This document shows, piece by piece, positions 17,917-20,186 of a stretch of DNA of 64,000 nt. The translations under genes and the position numbers were made by a program. This DNA is from Dokdonella fugitiva (lineage in GTDB: Bacteria > Pseudomonadota > Gammaproteobacteria > Xanthomonadales > Rhodanobacteraceae). Position 1 is the first letter of the stretch. Each line of letters opens with the position of its first letter. The stretch is taken from the NCBI RefSeq assembly GCF_014138265.1, contig NZ_JACGXL010000002.1, positions 620,001 to 684,000 on the forward strand, read 5' to 3'. The notes under the pieces were generated by a model that was not told the origin of the DNA, did not search any database, and was given only the letters and a program-made list of their open reading frames with translations.

Positions 17917-18049
17917 GCAACAATCCTCGGAGGGTCTTCGCGCCGCCCCCCTTGGACGTCGCGCAACCCCCTTTATCGCAGGCTTGCGCCGTATCGCGGT
18001 ACCGCCTGAGGACTTAGGTCCATAGACGGAGTCCGGTGGGCGGGCGGGA

Positions 18050-19234
18050 ATGAAAGGCATGGATCGACGCGGTTTCCTGCATTCGTGTGGTGCGCTCGCG
18101 GCCTCGGCCGCGGTGCCGGTCGCGCTCGCGGGCTGTGCGGCGACGCTGCCCATCGCCACGCGGCGCACCGCCGCGGCACCGGATCTGTCGTTTGCGGACG
18201 CGTGCGGCATCCCGCCGGTGCACGTCTCGGCCGAGCGCGAGATCCGCACGGTGGTCGGCCTGCGGCCGTACCGGCCGTCCGGTTTCGTCGTGCGGGCCGA
18301 GCGGTTCGGCGACACCCTCGTCGTGCACAACTACGGCCACGGCGGCTCCGGCATCACGCTGTCGTGGGGCACCTCGAAGCTCGCGGTCGATCTCGGCGCG
18401 CCCGGCCATCGCGGCCCGGTCGCCGTGCTCGGCAGTGGTGCGGTCGGCCTGTCGAACGCGATCCTGCTGCAGGAGGCGGGCTTCGACGTCACGATCCACA
18501 CGAAGGCGCTGCCGCCCGAGACGACCTCGAACATCGCGGGCGGCCAGTGGTTCCCCGCGTACCTGTCCGAGCGCGCGAAGCGCACGCCCGCGTTCGAGGC
18601 GCAACTGCTCGCGGCCGCGCAGTTCGCCTACCGGCGCTACCAAATCATGATGGGACCGCGCTGGGGCGTGCGCTGGATGCGCAACTACTACCTGTCGCAC
18701 GAGCCGTTCAACGAAGGCGGCTATATCGGCATGGACAGCCCATTACGCGAACTCATGCCCGAGCATCGCGACCTCGCGCCGGGCGAGCATCCGTTTGCCG
18801 ACTACGCCCACCTGCGCCAGTTCGACACGCCGGTGATCGAGCCGCCGGTCTACCTCGCGGCGATGCTCGACGAGTTCCGCATCGCCGGCGGCCGCGTGCG
18901 CGTCGGTGAGATCACCGACCTCGCCGCGCTGCAGGCGTTGCCCGAGAAGCTCGTGTTCAACTGCACCGGGCTCGGCGCGAAGGCGCTGTTCGGCGACGCG
19001 GAACTCACGCCCGTGAAAGGACAGCTGACGGTCCTGCTGCCGCAACCGGAAGTCGAATACGCGGTGATCGCAGGCGACTTCTACATGTTCTCGCGTGCCG
19101 ACGGCATCCTGCTCGGCGGCACGCACGCGGAAGGCGACTGGTCGCTCGAGCCCGACCTCGCGGCGAAGCGGCGCGTGCTCGCGGGCCACAAGTCGCTGTT
19201 CGACGGCTTCCGCGCGTGCGGGCGCAAGGCCTGA
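18050..19234 (+). CDS. FAD-dependent D-amino-acid-oxidase-like protein with circularly permuted motif order and Tat/lipobox signal
   Basis: 394 residues. The N-terminus has a twin-arginine signal (DRRGFLHSCGAL) and a lipobox LAGC with Cys29, so a Tat-exported lipoprotein is likely. The mature part starts with motifs that close the canonical DAAO fold: GLRPYRPSG (70-78) and VVHNYGHGGSGITLSWG (91-107). The Rossmann FAD motif VLGSGAVGL comes only afterwards (126-134), and the chain ends with MFSRADGILLGGT (346-358), which normally precedes GLRPxR. The order is therefore a circular permutation of the usual one, with all key motifs intact. The expected activity is oxidative deamination of D-amino acids, glycine or a similar amine at the cell envelope; the substrate is unknown. 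The gene is divergent from the TonB receptor. Confidence 0.8.
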   Translation: MKGMDRRGFLHSCGALAASAAVPVALAGCAATLPIATRRTAAAPDLSFADACGIPPVHVSAEREIRTVVGLRPYRPSGFVVRAERFGDTLVVHNYGHGGSGITLSWGTSKLAVDLGAPGHRGPVAVLGSGAVGLSNAILLQEAGFDVTIHTKALPPETTSNIAGGQWFPAYLSERAKRTPAFEAQLLAAAQFAYRRYQIMMGPRWGVRWMRNYYLSHEPFNEGGYIGMDSPLRELMPEHRDLAPGEHPFADYAHLRQFDTPVIEPPVYLAAMLDEFRIAGGRVRVGEITDLAALQALPEKLVFNCTGLGAKALFGDAELTPVKGQLTVLLPQPEVEYAVIAGDFYMFSRADGILLGGTHAEGDWSLEPDLAAKRRVLAGHKSLFDGFRACGRKA

Positions 19235-19248
19235 CGCGCGCGTTCCCG

Positions 19249-19302
19249 GCAGGAGCGACGGACGTCGCGATGCCTTGCTTCGATCGAAGAAAGTGCATCG
19301 CG
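19249..19302. repeat. Degenerate copy of the GGAGCG..GCGATGC intergenic palindrome
   Basis: GCAGGAGCGACGGACGTCGC followed by GATGC, a spacer, then GCATCGCG. It resembles the better-conserved palindrome at 21951-22018 and lies just after the oxidoreductase stop, before the convergent secreted-protein gene. Confidence 0.5.
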
Positions 19303-19328
19303 GCGGCCGGCGCGCGCGGAAGAAGCAA

Positions 19329-20186
19329 TCAGCGCCGCGGCGGCGGATCCGGCACGAAGCCGCCCGGGAACGGCTGCGGTTCCGTGCGCGCGACCGGGCG
19401 CGCGATGATCCCCTGCGCGACGAGATTGGCGTAGCTGTCGTACCACACCGCGAGCGTTTCGGCGGGCGCGCGCGACGCGCGTTCGAACGTGGTTTCGTCG
19501 ACGTGGGCGAATTCGCGCGCACCATGGCCGGTGCCGAGGCGTTCGGCCGGCGCAAAGGCGTCGGCCTTCGCGCGCGATTCCGGCTTCGCCTGCGCCATCG
19601 ACGCGTTCGGTGCGGCCGCGCCCGCCGTCGCGGCGCGTTCGGAACGCTGCATTTCGGCGGCCGGTGCCGCGGCACTCGGGGCGGGCGGCGCAGGCGCCGC
19701 GTCCTTGGCGGCGTCGTTCGCGACCTGTTCGCGCTCGCGCCACACCGGCATGCGCTCGGTGAACACGGCGACGCCGATCACGCCGACGTTCTTCGGTCGG
19801 CCGGTACGCGCTGCATAGCTGTTCGGCAGCGCGGTGAAATTGAACTGCGCGATCTCGTCGAGGTTCTTGCGCCAGCCGGCGATCTCGGTCGATTCCCACG
19901 CGTCGAGCACGTAGCCGGTCTGGCTCGTGTCGGCGGTCTGGCCGCTGACCGCGTTGACGCCGTCGACGCTGAGCACGGCGAGCACGCGCGCGCCGGTGCG
20001 GTTGGACAGGCGCACCGAGTAGCGGTGGCCGGGGGTGCCGGCGACGTAGAGCTTGCCGTTGTCGGCGTAGGTCGGCAGGGTCTGGCCGGTGTCGCGGTCG
20101 ACGACCGCGAGGTCGAGCAGGCTGCCCGCGTGCGCCGTCGAGGCGAGGCCGGCAGCGAGCAGGGCGGCGCAAAGCAGGGTACGCAT
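19329..20186 (-). CDS. Secreted protein of unknown function
   Basis: 285 residues with a clear signal peptide (MRTLLCAALLAAGLASTAHA, cleavage before GS). The N-terminal ~140 residues look like a compact beta domain (LPTYADNGKLYVAGTPGHRY, VLAVLSVDGVNAVSG). Then comes a low-complexity Ala/Pro/Glu linker, and a C-terminal part with WYDSYANLVAQGII and Pro-rich FVPDPPPRR. I think similar proteins are common in Xanthomonadales, but I know no function. GGAG precedes the ATG. Periplasmic or extracellular. Confidence 0.65.
   Translation of the reverse strand: MRTLLCAALLAAGLASTAHAGSLLDLAVVDRDTGQTLPTYADNGKLYVAGTPGHRYSVRLSNRTGARVLAVLSVDGVNAVSGQTADTSQTGYVLDAWESTEIAGWRKNLDEIAQFNFTALPNSYAARTGRPKNVGVIGVAVFTERMPVWREREQVANDAAKDAAPAPPAPSAAAPAAEMQRSERAATAGAAAPNASMAQAKPESRAKADAFAPAERLGTGHGAREFAHVDETTFERASRAPAETLAVWYDSYANLVAQGIIARPVARTEPQPFPGGFVPDPPPRR

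Follow-up and report, generated by a model that had tools for sequence, protein, structure and literature searches.

We found that a gene in a 64,000-nucleotide stretch of Dokdonella fugitiva DNA (the window) almost certainly encodes a flavoprotein with the fold of D-amino-acid oxidase (DAAO) and D-aspartate oxidase (DDO, or DASPO), whose chain is circularly permuted. The initial annotation had proposed a circularly permuted DAAO-like enzyme from the order of its motifs. In the 394-aa translation of 18050-19234(+), all the named motifs sit at the residue numbers that it gave. GLRPYRPSG and HNYGHGGSG come first and GSGAVG and SRADGILLGGT follow, the whole being preceded by RR6-7 and LAGC29 (Table 1). 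HNYGHGGSG presumably corresponds to the FAD-contacting motif in DAAO. The old C-terminus meets the old N-terminus at residues 117-123. Scanning the locus for promoters and terminators found nothing.

Table 1 Features of the permuted gene and its surroundings (positions in the window).
Feature	Position	Strand	Remark
Gene of circularly permuted DAAO-like protein	18050..19234	+	394 aa plus stop
Predicted twin-arginine signal peptide, residues 6-28	18065..18133	+	RRGF (residues 6-9) plus hydrophobic stretch
Lipobox LAGC, Cys29	18125..18136	+	sequence pattern
Moved segment, residues 60-116 (canonical DAAO/DDO C-terminal segment)	18227..18397	+	profile mapping
GLRPYRPSG, residues 70-78	18257..18283	+	R72 aligned with R283 of DAAO chain 5zj9
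HNYGHGGSG, residues 93-101	18326..18352	+	motif match
New junction, residues 117-123	18398..18418	+	between helix 105-116 and strand 124-127 (model DSSP)
Main FAD domain, residues 121-386 (canonical residues 1 to about 265)	18410..19207	+	Pfam DAO 124-386, profile, Foldseek
GSGAVG dinucleotide-binding motif, residues 128-133	18431..18448	+	
TTSNIAGG, residues 158-165	18521..18544	+	aligned with TTTDVAAG of DAAO
Y345	19082..19084	+	aligned with Y228 of DAAO chain 5zj9; Y in 74/80
SRADGILLGGT, residues 348-358	19091..19123	+	
Final helix, residues 370-385; new C-terminus just beyond	19157..19204	+	model DSSP
Segment without counterpart in congener G015	17999..19329		1331 bases, against 152 bases there (L196:3369-3520)

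The window protein was mapped onto solved DAAO/DDO chains using sequence and profile searches of the PDB. The DDO chain 6rkf was matched by phmmer in three pieces in swapped order (query 123-170 to chain 14-63, 248-378 to 135-265, and 52-113 to 268-331). A family profile of 64 sequences (alignment A1) found 17 DAAO/DDO sequences, which include several near-identical variants of one enzyme, at E-values of 4.4e-48 to 1.5e-32, and the next row stood at 6.1e-8. Two passing stretches were obtained in 16 of these 17 sequences and one in 1c0i. In all five alignments inspected, profile positions 107-371 fell on the chain front and 47-111 (47/54-111) on the chain end. The full DAAO/DDO segment set is present, with E-values well apart from those of other DAO-superfamily members; the canonical segment order is absent in the window protein and in 126 of the 139 distinct two-segment ORFs described below. 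The proposal that the last canonical segment lies behind the export signal was borne out, as residues 60-116 correspond to the end of DAAO/DDO chains in the profile mapping. In these alignments, the old C-terminal segment (GLRP...HNYGHGG...WG helix) is shown to precede the Rossmann strand with a join of about seven residues, and the chain now to end after the helix that formerly led into GLRP.

General-purpose family models returned the DAO domain. Pfam detected PF01266 in two stretches, the best covering residues 124-386 on profile positions 2-299 of 353. Only sub-threshold matches were obtained with NCBIfam, the best being to ThiO (TIGR02352; 54.7 bits, against a cut-off of 250.8). ThiO and other PF01266 members share the DAO domain with the window protein and, as far as is known, have the canonical order. 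DadA (PRK00711) was matched weakly (35.1 of 383 bits), with the best stretch around the dinucleotide motif; this different subfamily acts on D-amino acids with a respiratory acceptor and is not known to be permuted. Routine annotation conceals the rearrangement, since Pfam gives an ordinary DAO domain and the annotated plasmid copies are named only "FAD-dependent oxidoreductase".

We built two HMMs from permuted sequences, one for the moved segment (residues 60-116) and one for the core (121-386), and ran them on all ORFs of 185 loci. Both segments were detected in 154 ORFs of 153 loci, 141 of them permuted and 13 canonical. Some genes are counted more than once among the 141 (the window's own gene, for example, twice); after removal of identical cores, 139 distinct ORFs remained, 126 permuted and 13 canonical. 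A search for homologues of the same order had been suggested as a check, and these 126 ORFs supply them. The other 32 loci had no two-segment ORF, comprising 31 weak matches (L082-L084, L087-L114) and one Mesorhizobium locus (L116) with a split gene. In this Mesorhizobium onobrychidis plasmid copy (L116:5926-6989), the split falls just after GxGxxG and yields two overlapping annotated CDS, and is probably a frameshift, a pseudogene or a sequencing error. The core start minus the segment end was 5-10 positions in 119 of the 126 distinct permuted ORFs and 43 in one (L164). An acidobacterial copy (L181 / G999:C8:15069-16274) carries about 42 residues at the permutation junction, where 4-9 are usual.

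The permuted order is a trait of a widespread family and not a peculiarity of the window gene. The first homologue search gave at least 583 encoding stretches, from which 79 loci were kept, all with the permuted order. Their labels include Acidobacteriota, Pseudomonadota, Gemmatimonadota, Zixibacteria, Eremiobacterota, Dehalococcoidia and others, although many of the loci are MAGs whose taxon labels may be wrong. A simple motif search on the 79 loci overlooked GLRP (13 loci), GxGxxG (1) and LGGT (3), as letters vary or the chain is short in these cases; the aligned columns are nonetheless kept. The 40 loci of full-length matches from the Pseudomonadota and Acidobacteriota samples were likewise all permuted. 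Counts in the genome samples are lower bounds, as few first-look candidates were scored per genome: at least 20 of 398 Pseudomonadota genomes matched at E<=1e-11, the own genome included and all 20 permuted, and at least 29 of 247 Acidobacteriota genomes matched, of which 20 had the permuted and 7 the canonical order and 2 gave fragmentary or weak matches. Among the matches listed for a class sample of 369 genomes, the only full permuted match was in the window's genome, and G213 was canonical. One acidobacterial genome (G843; L155, L182, L183) holds four permuted paralogues, of which two share a 17-kb stretch. A plasmid collection gave 13 matching records, of which six (H1-H6) included the front segment. 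The match began at residue 107 or later in the other seven, and the four of these loci that were inspected (L121, L122, L171, L172) were canonical. Canonical forms, which also occur in Actinomycetota, are under-sampled in these figures, the genome samples being drawn from Pseudomonadota, Acidobacteriota and the window's class. We found no report of a permuted DAAO in a full-text search of the literature, read at the level of titles and abstract openings.

The canonical bacterial DAAO-like proteins of this survey come from Acidobacteriota (L174-L180), Actinomycetota (L121, L122, L171-L173) and a gammaproteobacterium (L086). They share both segments with the permuted family, as detected by the same HMMs, but differ in their canonical order, in the lack of a Tat-like signal (13/13) and in standing one branch apart. 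When the permuted profile was rotated, the best single-domain score rose in all 13 canonical ORFs, by a mean of 62 bits. Under the canonical profile, a gain was observed for 124 of the 126 permuted ORFs after trimming (mean +56 bits) and no gain for two. The untrimmed window protein showed no single-domain gain on rotation (150.1 vs 149.4 bits), perhaps because HMMER divided the match where the joining stretch is longer.

AlphaFold2 on alignment A1 predicted a single confident fold (mean pLDDT 90.5, pTM 0.86), with pLDDT of 94-98 in the moved segment and 53-66 in residues 1-50. The best Foldseek match in the PDB was DASPO 6rkf (E 9.5e-17, TM-score 0.58 by query and 0.68 by target, 271 columns). 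Among the best 50 rows, rows 1-33 were DASPO/DAAO chains, followed by glycine oxidase at 1.2e-8. TM-scores by target for those 33 rows were 0.56-0.71 over 267-307 columns in a sequential alignment only. Foldseek aligns in chain order, and therefore only the core can align. Such a core-only match in the predicted model fits a permutation and leaves the place of the moved segment in the fold unproven. Taken with the profile mapping, the rotation test and a family of the same order, the single-fold prediction supports the circular permutation first proposed from the motifs.

The DASPO/DAAO enzymes of known structure (human DASPO 6rkf; DAAO 2du8 and 5zj9; Rasamsonia 7ct4; 1c0i) have in common with the window family the FAD fold, GxGxxG, TTS/T-D/N-x-A-x-G, NCTG or NCSG, LGG, the R283 and Y228 equivalents, and HNYGHGG or HHYGHGS. 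The window family differs from them in the C-terminal quarter placed at the N-terminus, a shorter lid and a Tat lipoprotein-like signal. In the profile alignment, R72 falls on R283 and Y345 on Y228 of 5zj9. Motif columns are invariant or nearly so across 80 aligned sequences, window included, and R72, R75, HNYGH, the GxGxxG glycines and TSN are invariant in 80/80. In the profile alignment, the active-site lid is shortened by seven residues relative to DAAO 5zj9, with no counterpart of Y224, and by two relative to DDO 6rkf. The suggestion that the permutation is functional is supported indirectly, through the conserved putative FAD- and substrate-binding motifs.

The gene neighbourhood was compared across the family. 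No conserved operon common to the whole family was found by clustering of 79 loci or by adjacency in 63 loci, and no family-wide partner emerged when eight neighbours were used as queries against 125 loci of differing length. In the related Sphingomonas loci L028 and L029, an M19 dipeptidase ORF starts downstream of the gene, in the same orientation and at a distance of about 370 bases or more. M19-like ORFs on the opposite strand, no further than 4 kb away, occur in L044 and L072 and, weakly, in L183 (23% identity). M19 enzymes favour dipeptides with a D-residue, and these neighbours are no more than a hint of D-amino acid release. Arginase-family neighbours were observed at three loci (L015, L018, L078), with cytochrome-c-like matches further downstream in L015 and L018, and in Kozakia (L120) the gene is directly followed by one for a c-type cytochrome. 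A protein family in 11 proteobacterial loci matches Pfam copper monooxygenase and cytochrome CBB3 models, both below cut-off. AP_endonuc_2 proteins lie near the gene in L059, L061-L063, L065 and L067, and L008 has a partial match. In five mostly sphingomonad loci (L016, L031, L033, L038, L042), the gene follows an ORF that looks hslV-like, and in four of the five it precedes one that looks hslU-like, which places it within that gene pair.

Considering these data together, we think it fairly probable that the window gene encodes a permuted DAAO/DDO flavoenzyme that is loaded with FAD, exported by Tat, anchored by lipid and active on neutral D-amino acids in the periplasm. The protein would fold and take up FAD in the cytoplasm, which would account for the use of Tat. 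It would be exported in the folded state and lipidated on Cys29. Asp after the lipoprotein Cys leads to inner-membrane retention under the +2 rule; as A30 is not such an Asp, the protein of this gammaproteobacterium would probably reside in the outer membrane, facing the periplasm. Its reaction there would be the oxidation of neutral D-amino acids, or of amino acids closely related to them, to imino acids; the substrate carboxylate would be bound by R72 (=R283), and Y345 (=Y228) would form part of the active-site wall. The electron acceptor would be O2 or perhaps, in some lineages, a c-type cytochrome, as suggested by the cytochrome genes in Kozakia, L015 and L018.

A D-amino acid is the rather likely substrate by homology, because the closest solved relatives are D-amino-acid and D-aspartate oxidases and because of the M19 neighbours; the shorter lid and the missing Y224 counterpart, compared with 5zj9, count against it. 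Both the substrate and the acceptor rest on homology, since no family-shared partner gene was found. D-Asp specificity, which the best match to DDO might suggest, was not adopted: the DDO side-chain arginines, at the places where we presume them to fall in the alignment, are not conserved. The alignment column of H359 holds F in 37 and H in 25 of the 80 sequences. It is possible, though less probable, that the exported permuted fold acts naturally on another primary or secondary amine or amino acid derivative, such as glycine, N-methyl or imino acids, or a peptide-bound or secondary-metabolite amine. The same lid features would suit such a substrate, as would the lack of a family-wide amino-acid-metabolism partner among the neighbours found, the arginase-family neighbours, the BBE-type FAD and TPP enzymes that flank the gene in L117 and L119 (the TPP enzyme also adjoining it in L116 and L118), and ThiO, a glycine oxidase, being the best NCBIfam match, far below its cut-off. 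Against this, the PDB profile search separated DAAO/DDO (E 4.4e-48 to 1.5e-32) from glycine oxidase (6.5e-6), and the carboxylate-binding Arg and the Tyr are kept.

The export signal was evaluated by a pattern test (RR or RK, then 13 uncharged hydrophobic residues). The prediction of a Tat lipoprotein was supported, with RRGF, the GFLHSCGALAASA hydrophobic stretch and LAGC present by pattern, and the twin arginine conserved in the family alignment (R6 80/80, R7 79/80). Tat-like signals were found in 112 of the 126 distinct permuted ORFs and in 0 of 13 canonical ones. A lipobox-like motif was found in 96 of the 126 by a loose pattern and in 66 by a stricter one. Nine of the 14 misses still show, by eye, RR with a shorter hydrophobic stretch. 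The five without such a signal are L117, L118, L119, L139 and L140, the frame of L140 being cut by a stop; L141 has a Tat-like signal, though it lies in the clade of the unsignalled group. Judged from the N-terminal sequence, Tat export of the window protein is highly likely. A misread start codon or signal, leaving a cytoplasmic enzyme with a basic N-terminus, would accord with the one permuted subgroup truly without a signal and with export being read from a sequence pattern; it is improbable in view of the aligned twin arginine and the signals or shorter RR stretches in most permuted ORFs.

A strict link between permutation and export was rejected, as the permuted L117, L118, L119 and L139 have no signal. 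Permutation does not require export, since the members of a small rhizobial/actinobacterial subgroup have the permuted order but no export signal that can be recognised. In the rhizobial L117 (4494-8720) and L119 (4363-8690), the gene lies between an upstream BBE-type FAD enzyme and a TPP enzyme, and a TPP enzyme also follows it in L116 and in Nonomuraea L118. The unsignalled rhizobial and Nonomuraea copies may possibly belong to a small biosynthetic pathway using a permuted DAAO. As this subgroup adjoins TPP and, in two cases, BBE-type enzymes, the function of the permuted family may not be uniform.

A quick tree was constructed from 83 rotated rows, picked by identity from the 139. One branch parts 71 permuted from 12 canonical sequences (SH-aLRT 99, one change) in this unrooted tree; L086 and L173 are long branches, and starred quick-tree branches are then less sure. 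The topology is consistent with a single origin of the permuted order. If the permutation arose once, its link with export is one association and not many independent ones. As far as is known, the Rossmann motif comes first in other families of the DAO superfamily, so we regard the permuted order as the derived one. A duplication intermediate was rejected, as none of the 154 ORFs has two moved-segment copies at the threshold used. An assembly or frameshift artefact was also rejected, since the order recurs in 79/79 first-search loci (some near-copies) and in many others. That the front segment is an added accessory domain resembling the DAAO C-terminus, on a core that keeps its own C-terminal piece, would be permitted by the segment order alone, no evidence in its favour having been found, but is scarcely credible given the absence of second copies at the threshold used, the single predicted fold and a chain end at a median of 5 residues (range 1-42) past the core match in the 126 ORFs, which leaves little chain for a separate C-terminal piece. 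For the permuted chain, one idea is that the new N-terminus would start at a surface loop, which would leave more space for the signal and anchor than the buried first Rossmann strand.

We searched 16 genomes of the genus for the gene. It was found in one of them, the own genome. In congeners G015 and G010, the flanking TonB receptor and hypothetical gene are present and the permuted gene is absent between them; in G006, the hypothetical gene stands beside only a TonB receptor remnant and the permuted gene is absent. The difference from G015 (Table 1) is either a gain in the window's genome or a loss in G015. The flanking gene at 19329-20186 (-) encodes a conserved hypothetical protein that matches no Pfam family at E<=0.001 and was itself matched in 13 of the 16 genomes. 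The G+C content of the permuted gene (0.705) is close to that of the window (0.704). Among the matches listed, the closest were from a Gammaproteobacteria MAG (75-76% identity) and Rudaea (74%), and the next from a Thermoanaerobaculum MAG (71-72%) and an Acidobacteria gp2 MAG (67-68%). These relatives would suit horizontal transfer. More tentatively, there may have been one ancient permutation with ends suited to the export of a folded, FAD-loaded, lipid-anchored protein, which spread by horizontal transfer as an envelope enzyme salvaging peptidoglycan D-amino acids. With equal reserve, this enzyme could be an oxidase or a dehydrogenase that in some lineages passes electrons to periplasmic cytochrome c.

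To our knowledge, few whole enzymes are naturally circularly permuted with their active site intact. Both orders exist here in the same phylum with one apparent origin, which offers matched pairs for testing how permutation affects protein folding, the uptake of FAD and export. The family also provides naturally permuted starting points for DAAO biotechnology. If the protein is a D-amino acid oxidase anchored in the envelope, it would bring the turnover of D-amino acids, and perhaps the release of peroxide, into the periplasm of acidobacteria, sphingomonads and other such bacteria.
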